A DNA stretch of 64,000 bases from Bacteroidota bacterium. Its GTDB lineage: Bacteria; Bacteroidota; Bacteroidia; Bacteroidales; NBLH01. The stretch covers positions 1 to 64,000 of the forward strand of contig JANYKN010000131.1 in NCBI GenBank assembly GCA_025361565.1. Direction: 5' to 3'. This document shows, piece after piece, positions 33,361-57,520 of the stretch. How positions within the stretch are numbered: the first letter of the stretch is position 1; each line of letters opens with the position of its first letter. The translations under genes were made by a program, and so were the position numbers. Under the pieces are notes generated by a model that did not search any database, was not told the DNA's origin, and worked only from the letters and a program-made list of their open reading frames with translations.

Positions 33361-33905
33361 TGAAACTCCCCGCGGCAAGCAGCGGGGTATCTTAAAACAA
33401 AACCAACTGTTTACTTTGATGCAAAACAACGTATTCTTTCTCAAGCCCTTGGTCTCGAAAATATTTCGAGATACTCGTCTCATCTCCAAATTTGCTAACC
33501 GTATTCACATAATATCCATCCGTCCAAAATTCTCCACCCCACAGTTTCTCTTTTACCTCAGGATGCTTCTTAAATACTTCTCGTGCAATTATGCTCTTTA
33601 TCATCCTGATTATCTCACTCGCACTCATTTTGGGAACAGATTGGACCAAAAAATGAACATGATCTTTGTCCGTCCCTATCTCAAGAAAATGAATCTCATA
33701 TCGCTTCTCGATCTCAAGACATATTTCTTTCATCGTTATATCAACTGCTTTACTGATTACAACCCTTCGATATTTCGCTGGACAAACAAAATGATACAAC
33801 AAGATAGATACGTTATGCGATTTGTGTATGTACTCACTTTCGCTCATACATACAAAGGTATTACTTTTACGCAGCAAGCTGCGGGGAACAAACCCCGAAA
33901 GGGAT
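33361..33905 (-). mobile_element. IS200/IS605-type insertion sequence
   Basis: A single transposase gene is bounded by potential hairpins instead of terminal inverted repeats. On one side CCCCGC (33368-33373) pairs with GCGGGG (33382-33387). On the other GCAG/CTGC (33871-33882) is followed by CGGGG (33882-33886) with CCCCG (33893-33897). Subterminal hairpins and a Y1 transposase are the defining layout of this family. It fills the space between wzm and the SDR gene at 33913. Exact ends cannot be fixed without an empty-site comparison. Confidence 0.75.
33392..33847 (-). CDS. tnpA: IS200/IS605 family transposase TnpA (Y1 HUH)
   Basis: The protein has IGTDKDHVHFLVQSVP with the HUH pair (His-Val-His), the LWGGEFWTDGYYVNTV block, and SISKYFRDQG, whose Tyr is the predicted nucleophile for single-strand DNA transfer. 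The start was set at the ATG at 33847 (151 residues, MSESEYIHKSHN), which fits the family length. An upstream in-frame TTG at 33877 lies inside the end hairpin and is unlikely. No TnpB gene accompanies it. The gene appears intact. Confidence 0.85.
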   Translation of the reverse strand: MSESEYIHKSHNVSILLYHFVCPAKYRRVVISKAVDITMKEICLEIEKRYEIHFLEIGTDKDHVHFLVQSVPKMSASEIIRMIKSIIAREVFKKHPEVKEKLWGGEFWTDGYYVNTVSKFGDETSISKYFRDQGLEKEYVVLHQSKQLVLF

Positions 33906-33912
33906 TAGATTC

Positions 33913-34800
33913 TCAATTGCTTTTTTTGATTTTTTTGTTGATTCTATATGCTTCAACCATATCTCTTAATCCTTCTTCTGCAGAGAATTGAGGCTTGAAA
34001 GATAATTTTTCAAGAGTTTTTTGATTGTCAAATACCAATGAACCAAATAGTCGCATAAAAATAGATGGGAAAATCAATTTTGCAATTTTCAATAAAAATA
34101 TTGGAAGTCTAATTAAAATAACTTTTTTATTCAAATAACTAGAAATATGCATAACTAATTCGGTTGTAGATAATGATGTTTGATCAATGGCAATAAAAGT
34201 ACCTGAACTTTTTAATTCAATAATTCGATCAATAAAACCAACTAGGTTTTTTACAAACGTCATACTCCTTTTATTTTCAATATCTCTAAAAGGCAATATT
34301 GGAAATTTTTCAACTAGCTTAATTAAATTGAGCATATTTGCTTTCACTCCATCCCCATAAACTAGAGGCGTACGGATAATGGAAACAATAAATTTGTCGG
34401 TTTCCAGTAATCTTAACCCCGTCTCCGCTTCAAATTTGCTCTTACCGTAAGAATCAGTTGGATGGCAAGGAGATTCTTCAGTTATTATACCTGAGTTATA
34501 ATCTTGATCTCCATAAACTTTAACAGAACTTAGAAAAATAAATTGTCTTACACCAGATTTCTTGGCATTTTCTGCAACTTTAAGACAAAGATCTCTATTT
34601 ATTCTGAAATACAGAAACTCAGGAGTTTTTTTTGACTGATGTACTAAAGCTGCTAAGTGAATAACGACATCAAACCTACTAAAATTTACATCTTCAGGTT
34701 TATTTTCAATCAGGGACACTTCATCAATTTGGTTGAATCTTGAATGACGAATAAAATTTCTTCCTAGAAAACTGTTAGCTCCTGTAATTAAAATCTTCAT
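33913..34800 (-). CDS. NAD-dependent epimerase/reductase (extended SDR, WbpV-like)
   Basis: A 295-residue extended SDR: ILITGANSFLGRNFI, DVVIHLAALVHQS, FIFLSSVKVYGDQDY and the active-site DSYGKSKFEAE, then IRTPLVYGDGVKANM. In many O-antigen loci this subtype acts with an initiating sugar-phosphate transferase as a UDP-4-keto-6-deoxy-HexNAc reductase (WbpV type, making QuiNAc or FucNAc). The initiating transferase is not in the window. The IS200-like element abuts its 3' end. It follows the polymerase-like gene by 21 bp. Confidence 0.7.
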   Translation of the reverse strand: MKILITGANSFLGRNFIRHSRFNQIDEVSLIENKPEDVNFSRFDVVIHLAALVHQSKKTPEFLYFRINRDLCLKVAENAKKSGVRQFIFLSSVKVYGDQDYNSGIITEESPCHPTDSYGKSKFEAETGLRLLETDKFIVSIIRTPLVYGDGVKANMLNLIKLVEKFPILPFRDIENKRSMTFVKNLVGFIDRIIELKSSGTFIAIDQTSLSTTELVMHISSYLNKKVILIRLPIFLLKIAKLIFPSIFMRLFGSLVFDNQKTLEKLSFKPQFSAEEGLRDMVEAYRINKKIKKSN

Positions 34801-34821: not shown

Positions 34822-37245
34822 TCAATCAATTTGTTTATTTGTATGAATAAAAAAAACGTAAAAAGGCATCATCACAAAAAAACCCATAATTGGAGGATCG
34901 AATGGACTACTACCACTAAAAAATGAAAAAAAGAATGCAATAAGAAAACAGATTAAAAGATCATCATATTTTTTCCGAAAGGAAATATAAATATAGAATG
35001 CTTTATAAAGTAACCAAATATAGATTGATAATCCAGATATTCCTGAATATAACAATATTGTAATAAATGGGTTATGCGGATAATCGCCTCCAGAGGAGTC
35101 AGTTTTGAATTTTTTCATAAACCAGTCATAAAAACTAAATCCATGTCCTAAAATCTTATTATACCATTTATATTCAGATTTCCACAATTCTCTAGCATAT
35201 AGCCAACGAGATATTCTACCTGCAAAGATTGTTTCAAGTAATTTACCATTATGCACTAAAGAATCTGTTTTTGTTTTTTCAGGTTTAATCTGAAAAGGTT
35301 TTGGATGATACTGAACTTGAGTAAGGTTAACAATGCTAATATCAGCTATGTAGAATTGTGAGTTATTTTTTTGTGAATTTATTGGAAAAACCAAATTTGA
35401 CTGATTATTTTTAAAAGTATAATTTGCTTTTACATTTAGCCATCCATTGCCAATAGTATCAATGTGGGGTTTGAGATTAATCTGATATCCTTCTCCTTCG
35501 TTTACCCAGAACCCAATATAAAATGGGATAGTTTTAGGGGCAATTGGTTTCAGTTTAAAAGCTATCTGATATTCATTATTTGCTTTAAACTCAATATTTC
35601 GACCAACATAATATAATGACCAGTTGTCATTGTCACCATTGCCACGTCGGATATTTGCACATTTAATTCCATCTATCCATTCAATTTTAATTTCCAAAGA
35701 ATCAGAACTATAAGCCCAAAAGCCAAGGTTATTGTCAAAATTTCCATTGCTTATTAAGTTTAGATCATTAAAAGATTCCGGATTAACAACATTTAACCAA
35801 TTAAATATTTTCTTTGAATTTACCACTTTTTCAGGATACTTTTCAATGGAGCTATCATGATTAAGATCAGTAATCACAACCTCAGAAATATTAAAGTCTA
35901 ATTTTTCATTATTAGAACTAATAAAGAAAATTATCCCGAATTGATTTTCAATAAAAGTATATTTTGCAGAAATTGAGTACCAATTGTTTCCTAATGGGCT
36001 AATTTCTTTGTTAGTTGAAAACGTACTCAGATTTCCGTTATTCAAATCATCCACCCACCAACCCAAATTCAGAGAATAGATATTACCTTGTATAAGCTGG
36101 GCTTTGAAAGAAATTTCATATGTATGATTAGCAAAATATGGTAGTGCCGGAGTTTCTGTATAAATACTTAGTTCACTCCGATTTAAACTTTCATAAGTTA
36201 TTCTTGTTCCATCTCCATAAGCCGTAGCAATTTTTCTAATATTTGTACCAACATTTTTCGATCTCCATGATTTATTATCAAATTTTACAGAATCAAAATT
36301 AAGATATGGAATTGACTTTGACGAAAGATTGTTTCTAGGCTCCCATAATTTATCATTAATATAATTAAAATCATTTATCCCAATAAAGGTTGCATAGCGG
36401 AAAATCATTATTGAAATTCTATCACGAGGTATTCTATGAAAAATAATAATTCCACTAAATATTAGAATTATTAAAGTTGAAATTAAAATTATTGAATTTC
36501 TAATGAGCTTTTTGCCTATAATTAAATATTTTATTTTATTAAGATTATAAGCAAAATAGGTAACAATCAAAATCAAAAATACAAATATACCCCTTCTAGA
36601 ACCAGACAAGATGATATTTACAGTAAATAAAAAAACAAAAATACTATACACTAACCTAGAGTACTTTCCATGAATTATTAAGTTTTTATTGTAAATGAGA
36701 ACTACAAGTCCAAGAATAATAAATATACTGTAAAAGTTATAATCAAAAGCAAGAGAATTACCCTGAGATATGTGAAATTTGTCAAGGAGGGTTGAAGAAA
36801 TGTGGTCACTATAAAGCAGCTTTAATAAATTTAAAAGTGATATACCCAAAGTTGTAAAAACAATACAATAAAGTATAAAGACTTTTGGTATTTCAATGTT
36901 CAATGAATCATTTATAATATATAAAAAGTAAAAAAATGAAAATACAATTAGTATCAGCAGCAGATCCTTTTGTAAAATAGAATTCGCAAGCTCACCATTG
37001 ATTATAACTAAGAGAAGATAAACTCCAGCAAGAATTGATGGAAGTAGAAAGATTTTTAGAAATGAAAATAATTTAAAATTCCAATCGAATCTGAATATAA
37101 ATAAAATTAGAAATATTGTATAACAACCTACAAATAAATACGTAAGTGGCCAAAATGCGGTTTTAAAATAATAAAATACAATTGATAAAGCAAGAAATCT
37201 AGCAATAAAATAATCAGCTTTATTAGTTAAAACTTCAGAACTCAT
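34822..37245 (-). CDS. O-antigen polymerase/ligase-like protein with duplicated extracytoplasmic insertion
   Basis: At 807 residues it is about twice the usual Wzy/WaaL size. Residues 15-290 hold about nine membrane spans with SGSRRGI at 214-220. Residues about 680-807 hold the Wzy_C-like end (ILGHGFSFYDWF, then GGDYPHNPFITILLYSG) and the last spans. Between them, residues about 295-670 form a large hydrophilic loop made of two related beta-rich modules, about 320-465 and 495-645. Each has LNLGWWVDD or YIGFWVNEG, then NNWYSISAKYTF or NGWLNVKANYTF, then a VVITDL or ISIVNL end. They look like carbohydrate-binding-module sandwiches. The likely role is polymerisation or ligation with substrate binding in the loop. 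Confidence 0.7.
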   Translation of the reverse strand: MSSEVLTNKADYFIARFLALSIVFYYFKTAFWPLTYLFVGCYTIFLILFIFRFDWNFKLFSFLKIFLLPSILAGVYLLLVIINGELANSILQKDLLLILIVFSFFYFLYIINDSLNIEIPKVFILYCIVFTTLGISLLNLLKLLYSDHISSTLLDKFHISQGNSLAFDYNFYSIFIILGLVVLIYNKNLIIHGKYSRLVYSIFVFLFTVNIILSGSRRGIFVFLILIVTYFAYNLNKIKYLIIGKKLIRNSIILISTLIILIFSGIIIFHRIPRDRISIMIFRYATFIGINDFNYINDKLWEPRNNLSSKSIPYLNFDSVKFDNKSWRSKNVGTNIRKIATAYGDGTRITYESLNRSELSIYTETPALPYFANHTYEISFKAQLIQGNIYSLNLGWWVDDLNNGNLSTFSTNKEISPLGNNWYSISAKYTFIENQFGIIFFISSNNEKLDFNISEVVITDLNHDSSIEKYPEKVVNSKKIFNWLNVVNPESFNDLNLISNGNFDNNLGFWAYSSDSLEIKIEWIDGIKCANIRRGNGDNDNWSLYYVGRNIEFKANNEYQIAFKLKPIAPKTIPFYIGFWVNEGEGYQINLKPHIDTIGNGWLNVKANYTFKNNQSNLVFPINSQKNNSQFYIADISIVNLTQVQYHPKPFQIKPEKTKTDSLVHNGKLLETIFAGRISRWLYARELWKSEYKWYNKILGHGFSFYDWFMKKFKTDSSGGDYPHNPFITILLYSGISGLSIYIWLLYKAFYIYISFRKKYDDLLICFLIAFFFSFFSGSSPFDPPIMGFFVMMPFYVFFIHTNKQID

Positions 37246-37267: not shown

Positions 37268-38485
37268 TTAAGAATAACAAGGTTTAATCAAATCCACAAC
37301 ATTATCGATCAATACCTTACGATCAAAATTCAAATGATAAAACTCCTTTCCTGATAATGCCATAGAATCTAATCTCTCTTTTGGCATATTGTACATCTCA
37401 ATAACTTTTTCAGCTAGTTTTTCATATTCTCCCGCATTTATTGCAAAACCTGCCTTTGATTCATTAATTATGTCTGCACCATCACCATTTATCATAGCTA
37501 AAATTGGCTTGCCACATGCCAAATATGATTGGATTTTTGCAGGTACCGTCATAGAAAATATTTTTTCATTTTTTAAGGTAACTAAAAGTATATCTGCTTC
37601 TCTGAAAAAATTCGGCATTTTTTCCATTGGATATCTTCCTATTAAATGCAAATTCTCTAATTTCATTTCATTTTTTTGTTGTTCGACCCATGTTTTCTTC
37701 CGACCATCTCCTACAATTATCCAGTGAATGTTTTTATAATGTTTTGTCAGTTCAACTGCTTTAACTATTGAGTCGAAATCCTGCGCATCTCCAACATTTC
37801 CTGCAAACAATATATAAAATCCTCCCACAGGAAACAATTTACAGATGTCTAAATCTTTATCCGCGACACTATTGAAAATATTCTCCGCCCAGTTAGGAAG
37901 ATATACAATTTTATTACTATTAATACCTTTTTCAACAATCGACTGCCTGAATGATTTAGATGAAATTAAAATAATATCAGAGTGCTTGTAAATATATTTT
38001 ACTAAAGATTCAATTAGGTTCAACACTACACTTGAATTTATATTACCAGCAGCAGTAAGACTCTCCGGCCACAAATCCTGTACCCAAAAAATCAATGGCG
38101 CTTTTGAAAAAAACTTATAGAATACAGCGGGAAGACCTACTGTAATCGGAGAGGGTTCGTATACAAAGATCACATCATTTTTTTTTTGCAGCCTAAAAAC
38201 TGCACTGAATGAGGCAAAAAAAGCAAAAGAAAAATAGTTAAGGAATAAGCGCAGTCCACTTCCACTTCCTCTTCTTATTAATGGTGATCTAACGATTTTT
38301 ATACCATTATAATACTCAATTCTCTTATTGAAAAAAGTATACCCTGGGAAAAAAATCCCGGCAGGATAATTTGGCTTACCTGTTAGAACTGTAACTTCAT
38401 GACCTCTTTCTTTCAAACCAATCGCCAAATCGGTTATTTTAAAGATCTCAGGCCAGAAATACTGAGAAATAATGAGTATTTTCAT
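37268..38485 (-). CDS. Glycosyltransferase, GT4 family (WbuB-like)
   Basis: A 405-residue enzyme beginning MKILIISQYFWPEIFKI, then GHEVTVLTGKPNYPAGIFFP and FVYEPSPITVGLPAV and the LIFWVQDLWPESL block, all typical of WbuB/WcaI-like transferases. The donor half has ILFAGNVGDAQDFDSIV and TVPAKIQSYLACGKPILAMI. WbuB-type enzymes transfer L-FucNAc or its acetamidino form in E. coli O-antigens. The WbuX/HisH/HisF genes directly upstream make that donor attractive here. It ends 22 bp before the polymerase-like gene. Confidence 0.8.
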   Translation of the reverse strand: MKILIISQYFWPEIFKITDLAIGLKERGHEVTVLTGKPNYPAGIFFPGYTFFNKRIEYYNGIKIVRSPLIRRGSGSGLRLFLNYFSFAFFASFSAVFRLQKKNDVIFVYEPSPITVGLPAVFYKFFSKAPLIFWVQDLWPESLTAAGNINSSVVLNLIESLVKYIYKHSDIILISSKSFRQSIVEKGINSNKIVYLPNWAENIFNSVADKDLDICKLFPVGGFYILFAGNVGDAQDFDSIVKAVELTKHYKNIHWIIVGDGRKKTWVEQQKNEMKLENLHLIGRYPMEKMPNFFREADILLVTLKNEKIFSMTVPAKIQSYLACGKPILAMINGDGADIINESKAGFAINAGEYEKLAEKVIEMYNMPKERLDSMALSGKEFYHLNFDRKVLIDNVVDLIKPCYS

Positions 38486-38576: not shown

Positions 38577-39359
38577 TTATTTTAAACAGAAATTATCCCT
38601 TATTAATTTGTCCTTTTCAATCCTGTTCGGGTAATTAATAAGAACTGCTCTGTATACACCTTTAAATACAAAAAGACTTCCTGCAGCTGCACCAATCGTA
38701 CCAAATTTACTAATTAAAAGCCCTATATCCTGAAGAGATCCAGCTCCTCCTAATACTGTCAATGGAACATTAATAGATTTTCTGATCAAATCGACAAGGT
38801 TAAGATCATATCCTTTCATTAATCCATCCCCATCTATAGAATTGATAACAATTTCCCCAACTCCAAGTTTCTCCATTTTTACTGCAAAATCAAGTGGACT
38901 TATTCCTGTATTCTTAGTACCATTATGTATCCAAACTTCATATTTACCATCTTTAATATTTTTTTTAACATCTAGTACCACTATAACGCTTTGATTTCCA
39001 ACCTTCTCAGCTGAAAAAGATACGATTTCAGGATTTATAATAGCAGCTGAACTTAAAGCTACTTTTTCAACCCCTAAGCCAATAATTCTTGCAACCTGTT
39101 CGCTTGTATTAACACCGCCTCCATAACAAAGGGGCATTCTACACTCTGCAGCAAGGTGCTCGATCATTTTATAGTCAGGTTCCCTTTTTTCAATTGTTGC
39201 ATCAATATCAAGAACGGTAAGTTCATCAACTTCCTTTTCATTGAAAATTCGAACAGCATTAATCGGATCACCAACGTATTTTGGATTTTTAAAATTAACA
39301 GTTTTAACAAGCCCTTGATTTTTAACAAGTAAGCATGCAATAATTCTTGGTCTTAACAT
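38577..39359 (-). CDS. hisF: HisF paralogue of a sugar amidotransferase system
   Basis: A 260-residue (beta-alpha)8 protein of the HisF family: MLRPRIIACLLVKNQGLVKT, MPLCYGGGVNT, KNTGISPLDF, NSIDGDGLMKGYD and VLGGAGSLQD. At the position of catalytic Asp11 of imidazole glycerol phosphate synthase (IIACLDVK) it has Leu (IIACLLVK), whereas the Asp130 region (VLDVKKN) is kept. Loss of Asp11 argues against histidine biosynthesis. With HisH and WbuX it should channel ammonia to an N-acetyl sugar to form an acetamidino group, as for P. aeruginosa WbpG/HisH2/HisF2. It is 2 bp from hisH. Confidence 0.85.
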   Translation of the reverse strand: MLRPRIIACLLVKNQGLVKTVNFKNPKYVGDPINAVRIFNEKEVDELTVLDIDATIEKREPDYKMIEHLAAECRMPLCYGGGVNTSEQVARIIGLGVEKVALSSAAIINPEIVSFSAEKVGNQSVIVVLDVKKNIKDGKYEVWIHNGTKNTGISPLDFAVKMEKLGVGEIVINSIDGDGLMKGYDLNLVDLIRKSINVPLTVLGGAGSLQDIGLLISKFGTIGAAAGSLFVFKGVYRAVLINYPNRIEKDKLIRDNFCLK

Positions 39360-39361
39360 AT

Positions 39362-39976
39362 TTATAATTCAGCAAAGTTTTTAAGAAGTTGGACTCCCCA
39401 TTGATGGCTTTTTTCTGGATGGAATTGAACTCCATAAATATTTTTTGAATTCACAGCACATTCAAATTGAAATCCATAATCGGTTGTTGCAAGAACATCC
39501 TCTTTTCGATTGGTTTTAAAGTAATATGAATGTAGAAAATAGAATCTGGAATCAATATCAATATTTCTAAATAAATCATTATTCCTTACAGGGAGTACGT
39601 CGTTCCAACCCATATGTGGAAGAAGAGTATTATTCTTTAATTGTGATGGGGCAAATTTCTTAACTTCTCCATCAATCCATCCAAGTCCGGGAAGTTTTCC
39701 CTCCTCGCTGGAATTAGCAAGCATTTGCATTCCCACGCATACTCCCAATAATGGCAAATGATCCTGAAGGACAAGTTTCTCTATTGAATTCCGCATGCCA
39801 GAATTTTCAAGTCGTTGCATGGCAAAATCAAATGCCCCTACTCCTGGTAAAATAATTTTTGTTACATTCTCAAAATCATTTGCAGTTGATGCAATTGCAA
39901 CAGGAATATTAAGTTTGTTAAAAACATTAACAAAGGCTTTTACATTGCCCAAACCATAGTCAATTATAGCAATCAT
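39362..39976 (-). CDS. hisH: HisH-type glutamine amidotransferase paralogue
   Basis: A 204-residue class I glutaminase. Cys80 in LLGVCVGMQML is the nucleophile; His186 and Glu188 in VQFHPEKSHQ complete the triad. IIDYGLGNV at the start is the HisH signature. It supplies ammonia from glutamine to the HisF-like partner. The start overlaps the stop of the wbuX-like gene by 4 bp (ATGA at 39973-39976), and the next gene starts 2 bp on, so the three are made together. No other histidine genes are in the window. Confidence 0.9.
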   Translation of the reverse strand: MIAIIDYGLGNVKAFVNVFNKLNIPVAIASTANDFENVTKIILPGVGAFDFAMQRLENSGMRNSIEKLVLQDHLPLLGVCVGMQMLANSSEEGKLPGLGWIDGEVKKFAPSQLKNNTLLPHMGWNDVLPVRNNDLFRNIDIDSRFYFLHSYYFKTNRKEDVLATTDYGFQFECAVNSKNIYGVQFHPEKSHQWGVQLLKNFAEL

Positions 39977-41115
39977 CTAACTACTCTTTTTTCGAGACCC
40001 AGAATTTGCATTATTTTTGTACCCATATTAATCAGTTTCATATTGTTTTTATAATCCCGATAGGTTTTGTTTTTACCATCAAAAATATTTTGAAATTCAG
40101 CAATTGTTAAATCAAGTTTTTTTGCAACATATTCAAAATCCTGAGTCATTGTCAAATCATCTATCTCTGGTTTAGCAACCCGAGCAAGGGCTTCATCCTT
40201 TGTCATCTGATGTGTTAAAATAAGACTGGACAGGTGAGCTTTTCGTCTTTCAAATCCAAACTTCTTAGGCAGCCAATAGCATTCAACAAATCTGGTAAAA
40301 CGAGATTCATGATGCTTTTGAACATATTTTTGCCAACCAAAACGATCCGATAATTCTCGTATTGCATCTTCTTTTATATAGGGAACACTATTTAGAGGTT
40401 TTACTACCTTGATGCCTTTAATATATCGATAGTAAAGCTTATAAGTAAAAATATTTGAAGTTGGAAATGTCTTTAAAGCTATTTTCCCAAACCGTTTGTG
40501 TATATCATTTACAAATTTCAAATCTGTTGGATAGTAGGCACCCCACTCATTTGGTTCACGAACGCATTCTGTAGAAAAGTTAGCTCCTGTTAAAATGTAT
40601 TTATATCCATTCTTAACAGCATAATTATATAAAGAAGAGAAAAAAGCCAAATCTTGAGGAATGTCTATATTTGCTACCTGGGCCTTAAAAAAGGAGAGTT
40701 GCAAATCTTTCATTTCAGGCCAGTTTATTACTTCAGTTACAAGGTCAAGACCAAGTCCGTCTATAATCCGCTGAATATTATTCACTGAAACTTCCGAATT
40801 CCATCCAGCATCAACATGATATAAAAGAGGCCTTAAGCCAAGTTTTTCCTTTGCAATGTAGGCAACATATGAACTGTCAACTCCCCCGCTAATTCCAATT
40901 AAGCAATCATGATTAAGGTTTCTACCATCCTTTTTTATTTTTCGGACTATCGCATCCAACTCCTTTTCACCTTGTTCACCTGGATGCCAATTGGGCTTGA
41001 TATTTTGGTCAAAATTGCGGCAATAGTCGCAAACCCCATTCTCATCAAATGTGATATCCGGATCTGTAGTATCCATTATACATCTGGAACATATCTGATA
41101 TTTTTCGTGACTCAT
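39973..41115 (-). CDS. wbuX: N-acetyl sugar amidotransferase (WbuX/WbpG family)
   Basis: A 380-residue PP-loop amidotransferase. Two CxxC pairs (Cys9/Cys12 and Cys29/Cys32, in ICSRCIMDTTDPD and VCDYC) form a zinc-ribbon start. The PP-loop is SGGVDSS (76-82). FSTECVREPNEWG and LNSVPYIKEDAIREL are further family blocks. With HisH and HisF it converts a sugar N-acetyl group into an acetamidino group. Candidate products are L-FucNAm, ManNAc3NAmA-type sugars, or a 5-N-acetimidoyl legionaminic acid, since a legionaminate pathway lies 8 kb upstream. A promoter candidate lies 62 bp before the start. Confidence 0.85.
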   Translation of the reverse strand: MSHEKYQICSRCIMDTTDPDITFDENGVCDYCRNFDQNIKPNWHPGEQGEKELDAIVRKIKKDGRNLNHDCLIGISGGVDSSYVAYIAKEKLGLRPLLYHVDAGWNSEVSVNNIQRIIDGLGLDLVTEVINWPEMKDLQLSFFKAQVANIDIPQDLAFFSSLYNYAVKNGYKYILTGANFSTECVREPNEWGAYYPTDLKFVNDIHKRFGKIALKTFPTSNIFTYKLYYRYIKGIKVVKPLNSVPYIKEDAIRELSDRFGWQKYVQKHHESRFTRFVECYWLPKKFGFERRKAHLSSLILTHQMTKDEALARVAKPEIDDLTMTQDFEYVAKKLDLTIAEFQNIFDGKNKTYRDYKNNMKLINMGTKIMQILGLEKRVVR

Positions 41116-41261: not shown

Positions 41262-42248
41262 TTACTCACTAATCGGTCTTTTTCTTATAGAATACATTAT
41301 ATCATGAAGTAATTTCGCCAAAACCGAAAAATAAAAAAGATGTGTTAGGTTCTTCGAATGAAAGGCAATTAGGGCTGGATAATTCCAGACATTTCGTCTG
41401 AGAGTGAACTTATGTTTGAGTTTATCCATATTACCAATAATTTTAATTGAATTCCTTTTTGGCATAAAACCGAACTTTTCTGCTTTTTTCAAATGACCTA
41501 CGGTTTTCCAGTCAAAACCCATCATCTCTGAAATTATCATATCAATTGCTCCTAGAGAGTTTGAGGCTGCAAACCAATTTACCTCAATCGGTACTCCGTT
41601 CATCGGACCGTTATCATCTAGTCCAAATTTTCCATCTAAAAACGCATACCTGAATTTAAGTTTCTCACAAACCTGATTGATTATTTCATTAAAAACATAA
41701 TGGTTTTTAAGCCTCATTGTATCAGGCAGACAGCCCCATTGGTTTTTAAGTGAAAGAGTTATCTTGGTCATGCAGTGCACCTTGGGTACAGGACATGAAA
41801 TAGAGAAATCAATTTCATTAAAGAAAAATGCAGGTAGTTCAATATAGTAAGGCTTATTTTTAGCCATTATCTCAACTGTAACACGTGGCACTGCAGATAA
41901 ATTTATGATCTCTACATTTGGGTATTTAGATGCCATTTCATTAAACCCCATTTCTCGAAGAGCTTCAGTCATTGAAAAGCTGTTATATCCTCCTTCTCCT
42001 TCACCAATATATATTTTGGTTGTGGAATTTATCTTCCTAAGTGCTGCGACAAGGCTCTCAACAAATTCGAGTCGAGTTGTAACTCCCTCCTTAAATTTAG
42101 GATAGGTCAAATTAGGTTTGATAAATACTGCCTTTGCATTCGCAAATGCTTCATCCAATGATAATTCTTTTATACATAAAGCAAATTGTTCCAACATAGG
42201 ATTAAATCCTTCTGCACTTTTATCAACAATAACAATCGGTTTCACCAT
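41262..42248 (-). CDS. DUF362 domain protein (short form)
   Basis: A 328-residue DUF362 protein: AKAVFIKPNLTYPKFKEGV, then IYIGEGEGGYNSFSM, FSISCPVPKVHCMTKITLSL and NQWGCLPDTMR, and later AIDMIISEMMGFDW. The order matches the 509-residue paralogue at 11108 (IKPNL, IPKIKTH, MKNLIG), with shorter loops. The reaction is unknown. Here it precedes the amidotransferase trio with a 146-bp gap and stands apart from the GT4 gene upstream by 173 bp, so it may be expressed separately. No signal peptide is evident; a short hydrophobic stretch occurs near the C-terminus (LFYFSVLAKLL). Confidence 0.7.
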   Translation of the reverse strand: MVKPIVIVDKSAEGFNPMLEQFALCIKELSLDEAFANAKAVFIKPNLTYPKFKEGVTTRLEFVESLVAALRKINSTTKIYIGEGEGGYNSFSMTEALREMGFNEMASKYPNVEIINLSAVPRVTVEIMAKNKPYYIELPAFFFNEIDFSISCPVPKVHCMTKITLSLKNQWGCLPDTMRLKNHYVFNEIINQVCEKLKFRYAFLDGKFGLDDNGPMNGVPIEVNWFAASNSLGAIDMIISEMMGFDWKTVGHLKKAEKFGFMPKRNSIKIIGNMDKLKHKFTLRRNVWNYPALIAFHSKNLTHLFYFSVLAKLLHDIMYSIRKRPISE

Positions 42249-46434: not shown

Positions 46435-47772
46435 TCATCCCAGAACATCTAACAATTTGTCATCCGATTTCACTAACCTGGCTTTACCATTTCTAATAAG
46501 TGAACTCGCTATCTCAACTCCGGGCAAATCGAGCAACAATACTTTGCAACCAAAGTATGATGCTTCGAACAGAGCAGTTGAAAAAACACCAATAACGTAT
46601 TGTGATTCAGCAAATAACTGATATATTGATGTTGTATTATTAACAAATGCTAAATTTTCATATTGCGAAAATTGATTTTCATTCTTATCCGAGAAATAGG
46701 ATAAATTCTCGCTGGGATGAATCTTATATACAATATTCCAGCTTTCCATTGAATCTAGATTATTCATAACAAACTTAAGAATTTCCTGTGAACAATAAGG
46801 CTGCGATATTATCAAAATCTGATTTAATTTTCGCTTATATTGACTACTTTGTTTAAGCATATATTCCAGATGCCTGTTTGTGAACCCCACAATATTATTT
46901 TGTGAAACAGGTAGTTTGCTTGTCCACATATTGAGTTCTTTCCAGACGAAAAATTTATCAGGAAAATATGCCAGACTATCCTCAATAACGTCAGGAAAAT
47001 GACTAATCAGGCCCTCTTTTACTATTAATCCATGTTGAAGCTCATTAACCTCTATATTATTGTCTTTAGCAGCTTTAATAAGGGGAGATTTATCTCCGGA
47101 ACTAGTTAAATAAATATTTTTAGGATTCTTCCTTTTAAAAAGCTTGTTATATAATATATATTCCGATTTAAATCGCTTTATTTCAGAGTGTAACACAGAT
47201 TCCAAATCAATATTAATATTCAGAAGCTGCTCAATTTCATTTTCAAGGATTTTTATCCTGACTGAATTATCTTTGTCAATTCTTATGCTGATAAAATTCG
47301 ATATTATTCTGGATGCGATTGAGATAAAATCAGTGTGCTTATTTTTCATGGATCGCCTTGTCAGATGATCATAAACGTAATTAGTTTCATACTTACAAAA
47401 TGTAACTTTTTCATTATAGAAATCTTCAAGAATATAATCTGTGTAAATATCAATGTAACTGTCATCAACAAGATATTTCCTGCCACTTTCAAAAATAAGT
47501 ATATCTGACTTAGAAAAATCAAGGAATGGATTATAGATTAAGGAATTGATAAAAATCCGCTTTAAGAGAATCTTAAATCTCTCAATTTTAGGAATTTCAG
47601 ATGGTACTATGTTGTTGGGTATCAACAAATCAAGAATTGTTACATAAATATTTACTCTGGCAGACTGCCAAACGTATACATTGTTTATTTTCCAATCAAA
47701 CAAGTTATGCTTCTTCTCCAGATCAGTAATTACCTTAACAATTTTTGCTATACTGGTATAATTATACGCCAT
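46435..47772 (-). CDS. Sialyltransferase-like GT-B protein (candidate nonulosonate transferase)
   Basis: A 445-residue protein with no membrane span. The N-terminal half is unfamiliar. The C-terminal half has VNELQHGLIVKEG, KFFVWKELN, WNIVYKIHPSENLS and VIGVFSTALFEASYFGCKVL. A His-Pro pair followed later by a Ser/Thr-Ala-Leu-Glu block resembles the HP and S-S/T motifs that bind CMP-sialic acid in bacterial sialyltransferases and capsule enzymes. Because CMP-legionaminate genes lie just upstream, transfer of that sugar is the obvious hypothesis. It overlaps wzx by 11 bp. Other capsule synthesis roles are possible. Confidence 0.55.
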   Translation of the reverse strand: MAYNYTSIAKIVKVITDLEKKHNLFDWKINNVYVWQSARVNIYVTILDLLIPNNIVPSEIPKIERFKILLKRIFINSLIYNPFLDFSKSDILIFESGRKYLVDDSYIDIYTDYILEDFYNEKVTFCKYETNYVYDHLTRRSMKNKHTDFISIASRIISNFISIRIDKDNSVRIKILENEIEQLLNINIDLESVLHSEIKRFKSEYILYNKLFKRKNPKNIYLTSSGDKSPLIKAAKDNNIEVNELQHGLIVKEGLISHFPDVIEDSLAYFPDKFFVWKELNMWTSKLPVSQNNIVGFTNRHLEYMLKQSSQYKRKLNQILIISQPYCSQEILKFVMNNLDSMESWNIVYKIHPSENLSYFSDKNENQFSQYENLAFVNNTTSIYQLFAESQYVIGVFSTALFEASYFGCKVLLLDLPGVEIASSLIRNGKARLVKSDDKLLDVLG

Positions 47773-49039
47773 CAGCCACTAAATTATCATCATTTTTATG
47801 GGTAGCAATATAAGTCAAAGTGATTCCTGACATAAGATTTATAAAATGAGCCAGACAAACGCCATAAGCAACCCCTTCAATTTTATCAGGAAATAAGTTA
47901 ATCCCTATAAATGGCAGGATAATTAATAAAACTGAAAAGAATACCTGATAAATAATCATGTACTTCCAACTCTTAAGACTCCACAAGGCATTTACACCAA
48001 CCACGCTTCCCCTAAATACACCTGCAAACAATAGTATCTGCATTACAAGGATACTTTGAACATATTTAGGGAAAAAATTTTCAACAATTACCGGGACAGC
48101 ATAATAACCGAAAATGGCAAGAGGCAACTGTATACTGATGAGAATAATTGTAATCTTCTTTGAATATTTCCAAAGAAGCAGCTTATCATTATTTTTACCG
48201 TAATTATATGACATTCTTGGATAAATATAGCTTGCAACCGAACTCGAAAACAATGTGAAAGTTGTTAAGGAATAAAATCCAAATGTATATAATCCTACAT
48301 TTGCAAGATCTGAATACTTGAGCAAAAGTAATTTATCAACTGTTGAAGATACTGACTCCACATATGCCAATCCAAAAATTGGAAGTCCGATTTTTAATAA
48401 CTTGATCAGTGATTTCTTATCCCATGACAAGCCTACTTTAATAGGTCTTAGTATATGAAGAAGAATGACATAAATGAGTAGAACAAGGACAGCTTTTATA
48501 ATTAATCCATAGTAAGAATAATATACAACCAATACTAAGGTAACCAGATTAACAAATGCATCAACAATTTGAACAACTGACAACTTAATAAATGAGTTCT
48601 TTGAACGAAAAGTTGACATTAGGTAGTTCTGGTAATAACTAAGCATAATGAAAATAGTTATAGCCAAAACTCCGTACTGAATTTTTAAATCATGTTCTGC
48701 ACCGAATTTAAAATAAGCAATACCAATTATAAGGACTAGAAAAGAGGAAACAACAGTAAAAAATTGCACTGTACCAGCCATCCTTTCAGCCTGATTTACC
48801 TCACCTCTCCCATAAGCATAAGGTAATTCCAGATTTAATCCATTTATTAAACCAGCCTGAAGAAAAACAGAATATGTAACCGCAAGATTTATTGTTGTCC
48901 ATATCCCAAGATCAACCGGTGAAACATATCTTGCAATAACAAAACCGACGATCATCTGGGCAAATGCCTTAGTAAGTGACCCTCCTGAATATAGCAGAGG
49001 AGTTTTATATGATGATAAAAATTGTGTTACTTTTCCCAA
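47762..49039 (-). CDS. wzx: Lipid-linked oligosaccharide flippase (Wzx)
   Basis: A 425-residue polytopic protein of the MOP/MATE superfamily with about twelve spans. The first span region GGSLTKAFAQMIVGFVIARY followed by VSPVDLGIWTTIN is the polysaccharide-transport signature. It would flip undecaprenyl-diphosphate-linked repeat units to the periplasm for the Wzy at 45024. Its presence beside a Wzm/Wzt exporter 15 kb away shows that two export modes are encoded in the window. A 111-bp gap separates it from the nonulosonate genes upstream. Confidence 0.85.
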   Translation of the reverse strand: MGKVTQFLSSYKTPLLYSGGSLTKAFAQMIVGFVIARYVSPVDLGIWTTINLAVTYSVFLQAGLINGLNLELPYAYGRGEVNQAERMAGTVQFFTVVSSFLVLIIGIAYFKFGAEHDLKIQYGVLAITIFIMLSYYQNYLMSTFRSKNSFIKLSVVQIVDAFVNLVTLVLVVYYSYYGLIIKAVLVLLIYVILLHILRPIKVGLSWDKKSLIKLLKIGLPIFGLAYVESVSSTVDKLLLLKYSDLANVGLYTFGFYSLTTFTLFSSSVASYIYPRMSYNYGKNNDKLLLWKYSKKITIILISIQLPLAIFGYYAVPVIVENFFPKYVQSILVMQILLFAGVFRGSVVGVNALWSLKSWKYMIIYQVFFSVLLIILPFIGINLFPDKIEGVAYGVCLAHFINLMSGITLTYIATHKNDDNLVADGV

Positions 49040-49150: not shown

Positions 49151-49894
49151 TCAGATGCATGTCCAGCCTCCATCCACGATAAGATTGTGCCCTGTGATGT
49201 ATTTTGATTCATCACTTAATAGAAAAGATACTGCAGGTGCAATATCATCAGGTTTTCCCAACCTGCCCATTGGAACCCTAGACTCATATTTTTGAATAAA
49301 TGATGAGTGTTGCTGATCAATAATTCCGCCAGGAGACACACAATTTACCCTGATCCCTTTCCGGCCATAATAAGATGCAATATACCTGGTGAAATTTATC
49401 ACGCCACCTTTTATTGCAGAATATGCGGCAGGAGATGTTCCTCCGTATTCTTCGTATAGTGTAAAGTCGTTCCCTACGACTCCGTAAATAGAAGCGATGT
49501 TTACTATCGAACCTCGTTTCAGAGGTTCCATAACCTTAAGTACTTTCTGGCAACATATAAAACAACTGTTAAGCTGCAAATCAACATTGGTACGCCAGGA
49601 TTCAGCCGGAACATCCTCAAACCTGGTTCCCCAGTCCTTAGTTCTTGGATACGCGTTATTAACCCATCCATCTATTCTCCCAAATTCCTTTCCGATCAGG
49701 TCAATTCCATACTGAACTGAACTGTCATCAGAAATATTCAAATTTAATGTCCCTGAATTCAAGTTAGTTTCAACTTCAATATCAGCGTTGATGGCGATGC
49801 CTCCTTTGCGTATTATATCAGCTACGATTTCTTTTCCGATTAAACCTGATCCGCCTGTAACCACTATTATTTTTTCACTTAGTACCATTTTCAT
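49151..49894 (-). CDS. ptmA: PtmA-like SDR of legionaminic acid loci
   Basis: A 247-residue SDR with VVTGGSGLIGKEIVADI, WVNNAYPRTKDWGTRFEDV, the active-site SIYGV...YSAIKGG region and LSDESKYITGHNLIVDGGW. The VNNAYPR block and EEYGGTSPAAY match Campylobacter jejuni PtmA, which is genetically tied to legionaminic acid synthesis and the supply of GDP-GlcNAc. Its precise reaction is uncertain. It is the last gene of the leg set and overlaps the upstream oxidoreductase by 20 bp. Met3 is an alternative start. Confidence 0.75.
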   Translation of the reverse strand: MKMVLSEKIIVVTGGSGLIGKEIVADIIRKGGIAINADIEVETNLNSGTLNLNISDDSSVQYGIDLIGKEFGRIDGWVNNAYPRTKDWGTRFEDVPAESWRTNVDLQLNSCFICCQKVLKVMEPLKRGSIVNIASIYGVVGNDFTLYEEYGGTSPAAYSAIKGGVINFTRYIASYYGRKGIRVNCVSPGGIIDQQHSSFIQKYESRVPMGRLGKPDDIAPAVSFLLSDESKYITGHNLIVDGGWTCI

Positions 49895-50804
49895 CTAAAC
49901 AAATTTTAAGTACATTATATCCGTCAGAAATTGTATTAAATGATTGAATTTTATTTTTGACACAATTGATAAAATACTCCATTTGTTTATCATATGTATC
50001 ACTTATTTTTTGATCAGAGTAGAACAGGATTCCTTCTTTTCCTGTTATCTGATTCTTTAATAAATCAACATTCCATGTATCATCCTGGAAGACTACTTCA
50101 AAACTTCGCTTATTATCTCTTCTATAATAATTAAGAACTACGGATGCGCAAAAGCCTCCAAAGTCAAGAATATAATTGGCATAATCGATAGCTGTTATAG
50201 AAAGTGTTGAATTTCTTTTAAATTTCCTATTAACTTCTATCGGCATTCCAAAAATCCAGTACAGATAATCCAATTCATGTATCAAATCAATATGAACCCC
50301 GCCTCCTAGTTCAGGAATAGCTGAATAAACTTTTCTGAAGTCGACATTTGGTCGCCATTCTGGCAGGTATGACCCACAATACACATTTAATTCATTAATT
50401 TTTCTATTCTGGTTCTGCACGATAGTATTCCGAATATAAATCATGCAATCAAGGAACCTGAGATTACAGGCGACATATGTCATGATACTTCTCTTTTCTA
50501 CAGAGTGAATCATATTTTCAACATCAAGAGAAATATAGAGTGGCTTTTCGATAAACAAAGGTATGTTATACTCCAAAAGTTTTGATATTGTGTTTTTATG
50601 TTCTGAGGTAGGGTTAGAAATCAGGGCAAAATCAAAATCATGTAATGAAACCTCACTAAGAGTATAAATATTTCGTACACCATGTAAATTTTCGCTATCT
50701 ATTTTTGAACGAATTGCAAATATCTCAGCCGATGGTATTATCTTTAAAATTGAATTAACATGTTTTCTGCCAACAGACCCTAATCCTGCGATCAATATTT
50801 TCAT
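49875..50804 (-). CDS. Gfo/Idh/MocA-family oxidoreductase
   Basis: A 309-residue NAD(P)-dependent oxidoreductase. The N-terminal Rossmann motif is LIAGLGSVGRKHVNSI, the conserved EKP motif is PLFIEKPLYI (the catalytic-type Lys), and GGGVHIDLIHELDYLYWIFG is the active-site His region. Related genes are often found with ptmA, ptmE and legF homologues in nonulosonate loci; the role is not established, probably in precursor supply or modification. It overlaps both neighbours (4 bp with legF, 20 bp with ptmA). Confidence 0.75.
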   Translation of the reverse strand: MKILIAGLGSVGRKHVNSILKIIPSAEIFAIRSKIDSENLHGVRNIYTLSEVSLHDFDFALISNPTSEHKNTISKLLEYNIPLFIEKPLYISLDVENMIHSVEKRSIMTYVACNLRFLDCMIYIRNTIVQNQNRKINELNVYCGSYLPEWRPNVDFRKVYSAIPELGGGVHIDLIHELDYLYWIFGMPIEVNRKFKRNSTLSITAIDYANYILDFGGFCASVVLNYYRRDNKRSFEVVFQDDTWNVDLLKNQITGKEGILFYSDQKISDTYDKQMEYFINCVKNKIQSFNTISDGYNVLKICLDENGTK

Positions 50805-51523
50805 AATTCAAAATCAAGTTTCTTATTTTCAATAAGATATGTTATAATATCAAAATCGATAGGATGATCCAGATCGAAACAGACGTGAGGTATCTTGTAA
50901 ATAATGGATTTATCTGTTATCACACTTGTATAGGCCCTGTTAAAAAATTCCCGTTTATAAAAATAAAAAGAAGCATTCATATCATAAACTTCAGGGGCAT
51001 TTTGTCGTGTAAGGACAGTATTCACAGTTTTTTTAACCTGCGCATAAAAACCATTTTCTTTTTGCTCAACCATATTGAAATAAGGGCTTCTGCCAGCAGG
51101 GCTTACAGAGAACAGATTGATAGCTTCTTCATTATCCCTGAGTAGTTTGAAAGATTCAGTAAGATCATGAAGGTTCCTTAATGGAGAAGTAACATCAAGG
51201 TCCAGAACAAAGTCAAATAAACAGATATCATGATTTTCCTTCCAAAATAAAACATCTTTAATCGCATCTACTTTCCCGACATTATCACCAGCGAGAAATT
51301 CTGGTCTCCGGTATTCTGTTTTTAAGCCAAATATCTCGGCTGTATTTACTATTTCAGCTGAATCTGTTGAAAGGACAATGTCGACCCCTCCAATAAATTT
51401 CTGAAATTGTCTTGCTACATCGATGGAATAACTGATTAAAGGTTTTCCGTTTAAATTTTTAATATTTTTCCCGGGTATACCTTTGGAACCACCCCTGGCA
51501 CATATTGTAATTAAGATTTTCAT
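50801..51523 (-). CDS. legF: CMP-legionaminate/CMP-nonulosonate synthetase (LegF/NeuA)
   Basis: A 240-residue cytidylyltransferase. ICARGGSKGIPGKNIKNLNG is the CTP-binding signature, VLSTDSAEIVNTAEIFG and RRPEFLAGD follow, and DFVLDLDVTSPLR carries the metal-site Asp residues. It activates the nonulosonic acid with CTP for transfer by a sialyltransferase-like enzyme, for which 46435 is the nearest candidate. It is normal length for NeuA catalytic domains. It follows the ptmE-like gene by 8 bp. Confidence 0.85.
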   Translation of the reverse strand: MKILITICARGGSKGIPGKNIKNLNGKPLISYSIDVARQFQKFIGGVDIVLSTDSAEIVNTAEIFGLKTEYRRPEFLAGDNVGKVDAIKDVLFWKENHDICLFDFVLDLDVTSPLRNLHDLTESFKLLRDNEEAINLFSVSPAGRSPYFNMVEQKENGFYAQVKKTVNTVLTRQNAPEVYDMNASFYFYKREFFNRAYTSVITDKSIIYKIPHVCFDLDHPIDFDIITYLIENKKLDFEL

Positions 51524-51531
51524 TCTGATTT

Positions 51532-52578
51532 CTAACCCTTGATATGTTTAGCAAATTCCTGTACTTTTTTAAAATCTTCTGGTTTACCAATATCTATCCA
51601 GTATCCAATTAAAGGGAACCTTATGACTTTGTACCCCTTAGAAATAAGTAATTCAATAAAATCTGTTGCATCAAAAAAAGTTTCAAAAGGGATGAGGTCC
51701 AGAAGACTCCGTTTGATTAGATAAATTCCTCCATTCGCATAATAATTATACGTAGGCTTTTCACGTAATCCTAAAACTGTATTCTCTTTCAGCTCAAAAA
51801 TCCCATATGGTATTGAAACAGAGTATGGAATAGCCGCAATCGCCATATCAGCATCGCTTTTAATAAATGAATCAAAGAATTCTTCAAAATCAATGTTTGT
51901 GAAAAGATCCGAATTCATCACGAGTATAGTTTTGTTATGAAATTCAGAGACAAATTTCACTGAACCAATTGTGCCTAAATACTTTGGTTCTTTAACACAT
52001 ATTACTCTGATACCATCGATGTCCTCAGAAAAATGATCTTCTATCTGTTCAGCAAGATAATTTACTGTTACATGAATGTGTTCAACACCATAACTCAAAA
52101 GCCTTTCAATATTATAATCAATAATTGTTTTTTCACCGATTTTAAGCAAGGGTTTTGGGGTGTTTTCCGTCAATGGTCTAAGTCTTACTCCTTGTCCTCC
52201 AGCCATTAATACAGCATCAATCGGCAGAATAGACAGTTTTTCTTTAAGGTTATATACTTTACTTATTCTGCCAGAACTATCAAGATATGGTAATAGTTTT
52301 ATACCTCTCATGCGGGAATTTCTTACTTCAGAAAGAGAAACATCAGCCATATTTAACTTTTCGAAGTCCTTTTTCATTGCTGAGGATATCGAATCTGAAA
52401 GCTCTATTCCTGAGATCAGAGCTCTTCTTATATCTCCATCTGTTAATGTCCCAACAAGTTTTTGGTCTTCGTCAATAACAAACAAGCAAAGAATTTCATC
52501 CGTAAGTTGGTTTATCGCAATAAGCCCTTCTTTAAGTGATGAAGAAGTGCTTATCAGATGGCTTTTATAATTTTTCAT
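51532..52578 (-). CDS. ptmE: PtmE-like nucleotidyltransferase with N-terminal CBS pair
   Basis: A 348-residue fusion. Residues 1 to about 115 hold two CBS motifs (FVIDEDQKLVGTLTDGDIRR and LLPYLDSSGRISKVYNLKE). Residues 117-348 hold a sugar-nucleotidyltransferase domain with VLMAGGQGVRLRPLTENTPK, VMNSDLFTNID and YWIDIGKPEDF. C. jejuni PtmE has the same build and makes GDP-GlcNAc, the entry point of the legionaminate pathway there. The CBS pair may sense an adenine nucleotide. It overlaps legG by 14 bp. Confidence 0.8.
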   Translation of the reverse strand: MKNYKSHLISTSSSLKEGLIAINQLTDEILCLFVIDEDQKLVGTLTDGDIRRALISGIELSDSISSAMKKDFEKLNMADVSLSEVRNSRMRGIKLLPYLDSSGRISKVYNLKEKLSILPIDAVLMAGGQGVRLRPLTENTPKPLLKIGEKTIIDYNIERLLSYGVEHIHVTVNYLAEQIEDHFSEDIDGIRVICVKEPKYLGTIGSVKFVSEFHNKTILVMNSDLFTNIDFEEFFDSFIKSDADMAIAAIPYSVSIPYGIFELKENTVLGLREKPTYNYYANGGIYLIKRSLLDLIPFETFFDATDFIELLISKGYKVIRFPLIGYWIDIGKPEDFKKVQEFAKHIKG

Positions 52579-53734
52579 ACTTAAGGTTATGGAATCTTTT
52601 TTGAATAATGTTTTTCAGGTCGGTTTTTTTAATTACAGAAAGTATATTCTCCGCAGTATTGGTCTTTTCGTATGGATTAATATTATTCCTGCATGCTTTT
52701 CTGAATTCGGGTGTCAATATTTCTCTTATCTTTTCTTTAATTTTTACCTCTTCAGGGTCACAATCCATTACTGTTAATCCTTTTATTCTTCCTCTCTGAC
52801 GGCTACCTATATTCAGACTTGGAATGCCGAAGCAGGGTACCTCAATAATACCACTTGAGGAATTGCCGATAACAGCAATAACAAACTGGAGAATAGATAA
52901 ATACCTAATATTTCCAAGCGATGTTACCGCCAAAGATCTTTCCTGGTTATTTTCAACAAATTCATTAATCAACTGCCGGATAATACTTCCGTCAGTATCA
53001 GAATTAGGCATAGTAAAAACTATTCTTTGATCGCTGAATGAATCAAGAGCTATAAGGAGGTTCTTAATCTGCGCTTCCGAAGTGTTTTTTTCTAAGGTAA
53101 CCGGGTGAAAAGTAACGAGAATACAGTTTTTACCTAACTTAAATCCAATACTTTCCTCCAGTTTTGCCTTCGATAAAAGTTTCTGATTTCTAATATTATC
53201 AATACCAATTGCTCCGACATTAAAAACCCTGTTTGGCTCTTCTCCCAATTGAATAATCCTGTTCCGATATTCCTCTGTTGATGCAAAATGCAAATGACTC
53301 ATTTTTGTAATGGAATGTCTTATAGCATCATCATATGCCCCTTCGGTTATTTCACCACCGTGAATATGAGCAACCGGGATCTTAAAAATAAGAGCAGCAC
53401 TTACTGCAGCCAGAATCTCAGATCTGTCGCCAAGGACAAGTAGCAAATCAGGTTTTAGCTCATTAAAGGCATCTGCAAAACCTATAAGTGCCAAACCTAC
53501 TGATTTGACAGTTGCAATTTCTGTATCAGAGGAGATCAGCATATCAACTTTCTTGTCTATACGGAAACCGTCTTTCTCAATTTCCTTATATGTGTAACCA
53601 AATTCTGGTGATAAATGCATATTAGTTGCAATGATCTGCAGAGTTAATTCAGTATCTATCTGAATTAATTTCATCAAACTACTGAGCAAACCATATTCTG
53701 CTCTGCTTCCGGTAACAATGCAGATTTTTTTCAT
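52565..53734 (-). CDS. legG: Hydrolysing nucleotide-diacetamido-sugar 2-epimerase (LegG/NeuC)
   Basis: A 389-residue protein of the UDP-GlcNAc 2-epimerase family: CIVTGSRAEYGLLSSLMKLI at the start, LLVLGDRSEILAAVSAALIF, then HIHGGEITEGAYDDAIRHSI with active-site acidic and His residues, and GNSSSGIIEVPCFGIPSLNI with the nucleotide-binding Ser cluster. It releases the nucleotide while inverting C2 to give 2,4-diacetamido-2,4,6-trideoxymannose for LegI. It overlaps legI by 2 to 4 bp. Confidence 0.85.
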   Translation of the reverse strand: MKKICIVTGSRAEYGLLSSLMKLIQIDTELTLQIIATNMHLSPEFGYTYKEIEKDGFRIDKKVDMLISSDTEIATVKSVGLALIGFADAFNELKPDLLLVLGDRSEILAAVSAALIFKIPVAHIHGGEITEGAYDDAIRHSITKMSHLHFASTEEYRNRIIQLGEEPNRVFNVGAIGIDNIRNQKLLSKAKLEESIGFKLGKNCILVTFHPVTLEKNTSEAQIKNLLIALDSFSDQRIVFTMPNSDTDGSIIRQLINEFVENNQERSLAVTSLGNIRYLSILQFVIAVIGNSSSGIIEVPCFGIPSLNIGSRQRGRIKGLTVMDCDPEEVKIKEKIREILTPEFRKACRNNINPYEKTNTAENILSVIKKTDLKNIIQKRFHNLKYEKL

Positions 53735-54732: not shown

Positions 54733-54734
54733 GC

Positions 54735-56518: not shown

Positions 56519-56520
56519 GT

Positions 56521-57513: not shown

Positions 57514-57520
57514 TTTGTAA

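Follow-up and report, generated by a model that had tools for sequence, protein, structure and literature searches.

A Wzy/WaaL-like membrane enzyme of the Bacteroidales with carbohydrate-module-like domains inserted in its catalytic loop

Enzymes of the Wzy/WaaL class have 10-14 membrane helices with large periplasmic loops, as set out in PMC12004945. It is not settled how a Wzy enzyme holds on to the growing chain or how the length of that chain is fixed, and the models considered here assign that role to a separate protein, Wzz. According to PMC10030265, Wzy and Wzz form a complex, the periplasmic part of the Wzz co-polymerase acts on Wzy and on chain length, and Wzz is proposed as a periplasmic partner that promotes Wzy processivity. 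A glycan-binding domain within an assembly machine is described for Wzt of the O-antigen ABC exporter, which recognises its own polymer (PMC9445017). Among the named fold matches to modules of the CBM4, CBM16 and CBM22 type (CBM_4_9, PF02018), many are polysaccharide-degrading enzymes, while phage tail proteins, insecticidal proteins and glycan-binding proteins also occur. Here we describe a protein in which, unlike those CBMs, a module of this type sits within a membrane enzyme of the polysaccharide-building class.

The protein is encoded in the window, by which we mean the whole 64,000-nucleotide stretch of Bacteroidota DNA analysed here (contig JANYKN010000131.1). It differs from each of the systems above. 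Wzz is a protein of its own, and its periplasmic domain is mainly helical, whereas here the extension belongs to the enzyme itself and its second module is predicted to be a beta-sandwich; Wzt, likened to our protein by description, is part of an ABC transporter that recognises a capped chain end. Among the matches listed by a literature search (titles and the starts of abstracts, most subscription papers lying outside its reach), no such module-bearing polymerase appeared, and the accessible parts of PMC12004945, PMC10920833 and PMC12419801 make no mention of one. An earlier note on this DNA had held that no described Wzy or WaaL carries such a built-in module pair, and these matches bear that out. 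As far as the search extended, the protein is a real, undescribed variant of the Wzy/WaaL-like enzymes, distinguished by a modular catalytic loop, and not a new kind of system.

The gene lies at 34822-37245 on the minus strand and forms one open frame of 807 residues; this frame, together with the recurrence of the same layout across many contigs, rules out an assembly artefact or frameshift. It is the sole whole-protein match in its own 6.76 Mb genome at E 0.001, where a profile of its C-terminal part also detects a distant relative (G000:C21, E 5.6e-6). Hydrophobic segments run until about residue 273 and resume at residue 727, with none in between. AlphaFold2, given a 63-row alignment of the window protein with translated stretches of related loci (N-terminal fragments trimmed, L087 left out, short misaligned tails remaining), produced a model with mean pLDDT 78.7 and pTM 0.70, in which nine helices precede the insertion (TM1-TM9, residues ~10-271, 36433-37218, minus strand; pLDDT blocks 68-96) and three follow it (TM10-TM12, residues 726-806, 34828-35070, minus strand; pLDDT blocks 89-95 to residue 800). 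A single-sequence model of the whole protein was set aside (pLDDT 41.8).

Comparison with the WaaL ligase (PDB 7tpg/7tpj) revealed three motifs in register: firstly, SRR (residues 216-218, 36592-36600, minus strand), at the start of the Wzy_C domain, aligns to TRG, and its S216 and R218 are kept in all aligned rows having letters there; secondly, RxxRW (residues 677-681, 35203-35217, minus strand), C-terminal to the modules, aligns to RLKIW within VRLKIW, and its R677 is invariant across 15 rows; thirdly, HN (residues 724-725 in DYPHNP, 35071-35076, minus strand), at the end of the loop and containing the catalytic-type histidine, aligns to HAHN. A pattern search of 53 family proteins found HN in 52 and PHS in one. 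The family profile detects 7tpg weakly (E 0.034), as its best solved relative, over residues 175-334 of 413, a stretch that leaves no room for such modules in the corresponding loop; phmmer of the window protein against the PDB gave no match. The match to Pfam Wzy_C (PF04932), which the insertion breaks into two stretches, scores 21.7 bits. Because this falls below the cut-off of 31.7, while the relatives L038 (42.7) and L050 (48.7) pass it, we use the label Wzy/WaaL-like. Two traits of the class recur here: conserved arginine and histidine motifs flank a large predicted periplasmic loop throughout the family, and the 12 helices predicted by the window-protein model fall within the range of 10-14. 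The motifs and the predicted helices agree with the Wzy/WaaL-like membrane body that had been proposed.

The loop between TM9 and TM10 contains two homologous modules, at residues ~320-460 and 496-639. The earlier note had described a hydrophilic insertion at about residues 295-670, built as an internal duplication of two carbohydrate-module-like domains; its borders proved close, and both the duplication and the kind of domain held up. Pfam CBM_4_9 has one match in the protein, at residues 496-626 within module 2 (34 bits, cut-off 25.9). Pfam reports no CBM_4_9 match in module 1, which was placed instead by a profile of the same module type, here called type A. Built from 15 one-module relatives with the window protein excluded, this profile detects module 1 at E 6.3e-19 (35866-36288, minus strand) and module 2 at E 6.7e-34 (35329-35760, minus strand). 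HHalign of module 1 against the type A profile gave 99.9%, a value that we did not count as independent since that version of the profile already contained the window's own modules. The two halves align with a local BLOSUM62 score of 142, as compared to a mean of 37.8 (SD 6.5, maximum 66) for 500 shuffles, none of which reached it, and the strand pairs previously quoted (LNLGWWVDD with YIGFWVNEG, WYSISAKYTF with WLNVKANYTF) are aligned as claimed. Module 1 is without the N-terminal strand, the first of the fold, and without the YxGR motif conserved in other modules; judged by these losses, it may be incapable of binding. Ten type A proteins were scanned with Pfam CBM_4_9: two passed the cut-off (the window protein and L043), five fell below it (L045, L046, L056, L069 and L073) and three had no match (L037, L040 and L041). 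A match of module 1 to NCBIfam GTA_spike_fiber (30.9, under the cut-off of 36, and unreported in 10 relatives scanned) was rejected, and we read it as a general sandwich likeness.

Structure prediction and fold searches, proposed earlier as a check for a beta-sandwich, gave such a fold for module 2, while the model of module 1 was too weak to judge. For module 2 the model reaches pLDDT 88-97 across residues 501-640. Only part of module 1 is modelled with confidence; its alignment depth is 1-2 over most of its length, and residues 304-367 are left unresolved by the model. The best Foldseek match was the CBM22 tandem 4xup (E 1.3e-6), followed by insecticidal Cry proteins, a glucosyltransferase and a Bacteroides glycan-binding protein, with CBM16 and CBM4 chains at ~1e-3. 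A second structure aligner matched module 2 to CBM4-2 of Rhodothermus (4bj0; Z 12.8, rmsd 2.7 A, 136 residues), and further to 4xuo (Z 11.8) and 3oea (Z 11.6). Sequence profiles reach the PDB less readily: the type A profile finds weak matches, led by a chain labelled GH26 (E 0.0073) and one of a hyaluronate lyase (E 0.07), and profile A2 finds none. By Pfam score and predicted fold, module 2 resembles the CBM4/CBM16/CBM22 type, and we predict it to be a CBM4-type beta-sandwich.

The insertion shares its inter-helix loop with RxxRW and HN, and we place it in the periplasm because the loop is common to the catalytic-type HN motif; the modules are accordingly predicted to be periplasmic. Short loops predicted inside average 1.7-3.5 lysines plus arginines each, and those predicted outside 0.1-2.2 (28 full rows, the long TM9-TM10 loop and the C-terminus excluded and the SRR loop counted among the outside ones), a modest positive-inside charge bias that agrees with the predicted topology. 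The main periplasmic loop of a Brucella ligase holds a conserved histidine together with an arginine that matters for ligation (PMC9938171), and by analogy that histidine would be the equivalent of H724. A cytoplasmic prediction did not occur, and the topology is consistent with the periplasmic side originally suggested.

Searching 393 genomes of the same order with a C-terminal-part profile (threshold 1e-14) revealed 20 places in 17 genomes; the loop is long at 14 of these places, spread over 14 genomes, and not at the other 6. A further 44 loci, of which 25 carry Bacteroidales or Salinivirgaceae in their titles, came from an alignment-based scan of named genome contigs, where a scan with the window protein alone had found no relative; in a survey of the phylum with the C-terminal profile at 1e-12, one of 395 genomes matched, the window's own. 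There are 71 family ORFs, 63 of them distinct and 53 classed by loop layout. The relatives, mostly from Bacteroidales MAGs, carry zero, one, two, three or four modules at one same site. These modules are of two types, A and B, with no detectable sequence kinship (HHalign 0.4%), and their strand cores are conserved. Fifteen of the 53 proteins have neither type (loops of 29-117 residues), 15 have one A (229-241), six have one B (234-331), three, including the window protein, have two A (AA, 413-445), two have two B (BB, 441-498), two have A inside B (550-570), one has three B (BBB, 588) and four have four B (BBBB, 727-728). In the two nested cases the type B profile is split around a type A module: in L073 at model positions 1-100 and then 92-149, the type A module being whole, and in L069 at 4-134 and then 96-149. 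The survey for similar insertions proposed earlier therefore shows the window protein to be no isolated oddity but a member of a polymerase-like family with a modular loop.

The remaining five proteins (L038/L087, L047/L082, L048, L085 and L086) have long loops of 343-523 residues with no recognised type A or B module; for three such loops HHalign returned a weak 26% against type A across 88 columns, and they may hold further, diverged modules. Several paralogues without modules end in a sugar transferase of the PF02397 type and are thus polymerase-like proteins fused to an initiating-type enzyme; the transferase was identified by Pfam in L047 (3944-5884), L048 (3841-5859) and L049 (3907-5688) and by similarity search in L089 (5113-7026) and L057 (11781-13496); in L047, L048 and L057 the fusion shares its locus with a long-loop paralogue.

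A quick tree of the membrane parts was built without L040, L053, L054, L055, the first ORF of L084 and L092, whose N-terminal part was missing or unrecognised, and without L051, L052 and the second ORFs of L084 and L086, judged to be distant Wzy_C proteins. The window protein (AA) grouped with eight B, BB and B-A-B proteins (SH-aLRT 97), and the other two AA proteins grouped elsewhere with 14 of the 15 A proteins (SH-aLRT 97). With the starred branches taken as given, AA needs at least two changes. Because of its long branch and the quick method, the exact place of the window protein is unsure. Over the whole tree the layouts need 12 changes, as compared to a mean of 32.4 when shuffled, and none of 200 shuffles was as low. 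At the level of sequence, these comparisons establish the module family, its position, its recurrence and the differing module sets on related bodies.

Among the genomes surveyed, the modules are nearly confined to this enzyme class. Profiles built from the modules themselves were run against 386 genomes, scoring at most ~10 candidates per genome, a design in which distant copies may be missed. Type A was found at 10 places in 8 genomes, nine in polymerase-like proteins and the tenth a marginal match (G197, E 4.8e-5); type B was found at 18 places in 8 genomes, 13 in the TM9-TM10 loop and five at a C-terminus. Thus, 27 of the 28 matches among these candidates lie within Wzy_C-class enzymes, and the idea that the modules are shared with secreted glycoside hydrolases of the surveyed genomes is unsupported (9/10 for A and 18/18 for B in Wzy_C-class or polymerase-like proteins). 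A phylum survey for type B found it in 0 of 355 genomes, a sample without a known positive and hence of little weight. Type B has sub-cut-off matches to Pfam CBM_4_9 in three proteins (E 0.013-0.089), and its profile gave no match among PDB sequences.

The five C-terminal cases (L108-L112, from four genomes) belong to a different Wzy_C subfamily, and all pass the Wzy_C cut-off (49.2-71.4 bits). All five have four hydrophobic segments between HN and the module. A comparison set of 64 proteins (63 from the family plus the second Wzy_C-like protein of the window, with few close relatives of L108-L112), counted by a hydropathy threshold and not by a topology program, has three segments after HN in 56, fewer in eight and four in none; at least one of the eight low counts comes from a misplaced motif (window 13973-15229). 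If HN is periplasmic, the extra segment would bring the C-terminal type B module to the periplasm as well.

The gene is flanked downstream by an NAD-dependent epimerase (33913-34800, minus strand; Pfam Epimerase), a homologue of which occurs in 12 of 41 related loci, and upstream by a group-1 type glycosyltransferase (37268-38485, minus strand; Pfam). A Wzx-type flippase lies in the same glycan region ~10.5 kb away (47762-49039, minus strand; Pfam Polysacc_synt_3), Wzm/Wzt-like genes lie a few genes downstream of the polymerase-like gene, and no initiating transferase of the WecA-like type was found in the window. An IS200-like Y1 transposase gene (33392-33877; PF01797) is situated between the epimerase and the Wzm-like gene, and a second Wzy_C-like protein of 418 residues is encoded at 13973-15229 (23 bits, cut-off 31.7), with no large insertion to judge by its length. 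Across the 41 related loci, which extend up to 6 kb per side, include module-free members and are in several cases cut by contig ends, a WecA-like initiating transferase is present in 11, a Wzx in 14, either in 19 and neither in 22. The presence of one or the other in 19 loci fits the Wzx/Wzy pathway.

The surroundings hold further glycan genes. The region 49151-57537 probably encodes a nonulosonic-acid pathway (NeuB, UDP-GlcNAc 2-epimerase, a cytidylyltransferase and a CBS plus nucleotidyltransferase protein, together with a PglD-like acetyltransferase, a DegT aminotransferase and a dehydratase), which we take to be of the legionaminic type. Genes at 38577-41115 encode HisF-like and glutamine amidotransferase proteins and then a protein that matches NAD synthase weakly, presumably a set as in acetamidino-sugar synthesis, and two DUF362 genes lie within the glycan region (11108-12637 and 41262-42248).

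Our preferred reading, to which we assign a probability of roughly 0.55, is that the protein is a polymerase of the Wzy type for a surface polysaccharide, and that its exchangeable modules bind the nascent glycan in the periplasm and thereby affect processivity, length or specificity. We infer that it is a polymerase rather than a ligase, that the modules bind glycan and that this influences processivity. Several observations weigh against this reading: the sub-cut-off Wzy_C score of the window protein, the patchy CBM_4_9 matches among type A proteins, the nearby Wzm/Wzt-like genes, the 22 related loci (some of them truncated) with neither initiating transferase nor Wzx, the five unrecognised long loops, the weak CBM_4_9 likeness of type B and the losses in module 1. 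The reading that best survives beside it is that of an O-antigen or other glycan ligase, WaaL-like, with modules that would bind either the completed glycan or the acceptor and assist in presenting it for transfer; we regard this as possible, though distinctly the less probable of the two. It is kept because the window has no initiating transferase, a distant Wzx, Wzm/Wzt-like genes and another Wzy_C-like protein, module-free, which could itself be the polymerase, and it agrees with WaaL 7tpg being the best solved relative and with the Pfam name of the domain, O-antigen ligase. Against it stand the 19 of 41 related loci with an initiating transferase or Wzx, and the variation of the neighbouring genes from locus to locus, which is easier to reconcile with a polymerase specific to each locus than with a ligase serving the whole strain.

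For the chain-binding polymerase, we propose the following course of events. The catalytic body would act on lipid-linked sugar units at the periplasmic face, like other Wzy/WaaL enzymes, with the two CBM4-like modules hanging in the periplasm near the active site. There they would bind the polymer that their own locus produces, so that the growing chain stays close to the active site from one round to the next, which could raise processivity or select the chain to be extended, and so shape chain length. That relatives carry zero to four modules at one site suggests an enzyme with a grip on the chain under synthesis, and variation in both number and type would be expected if each module set fits its own glycan. 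The same variability tells against a docking device, in which the ligand of the modules would be peptidoglycan, some other glycan of the envelope or a partner protein, and not the enzyme's own product, and the enzyme would thereby be kept in place within an assembly, as a general anchor would be expected to stay constant. CBM-like sandwiches can bind many ligands, type B may not have a carbohydrate-module fold, and Wzy does form a complex with Wzz, all of which favour docking; we nevertheless consider it unlikely. That the insertions are tolerated loop passengers of little function is very improbable: relatives' loops do span 29-728 residues and members without modules exist, but the strand cores are conserved, two module types have been taken up at one site, and type B has joined another Wzy_C subfamily along with an extra hydrophobic segment.

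The chain-binding reading does not make the modules a simple replacement for Wzz. As a sole explanation this was rejected, as Wzz-family genes above the cut-off coexist in 12 of the 14 genomes examined; the window's genome has three matches, none on the window's contig, and in G286 and G102 a Wzz gene lies ~9 and 15 kb, respectively, from the long-loop gene. The number and kind of modules in the catalytic loop might also decide how the nascent chain is held; module count would then be a gene-level setting for chain length or processivity, beside or above Wzz, an extension that we offer tentatively and think rather doubtful.

Related enzymes with zero to four modules at one site form a graded series, so that a chain-binding role is testable by removal or exchange of modules. 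The family may also offer a handle for glycan engineering and for linking genes to polymers.
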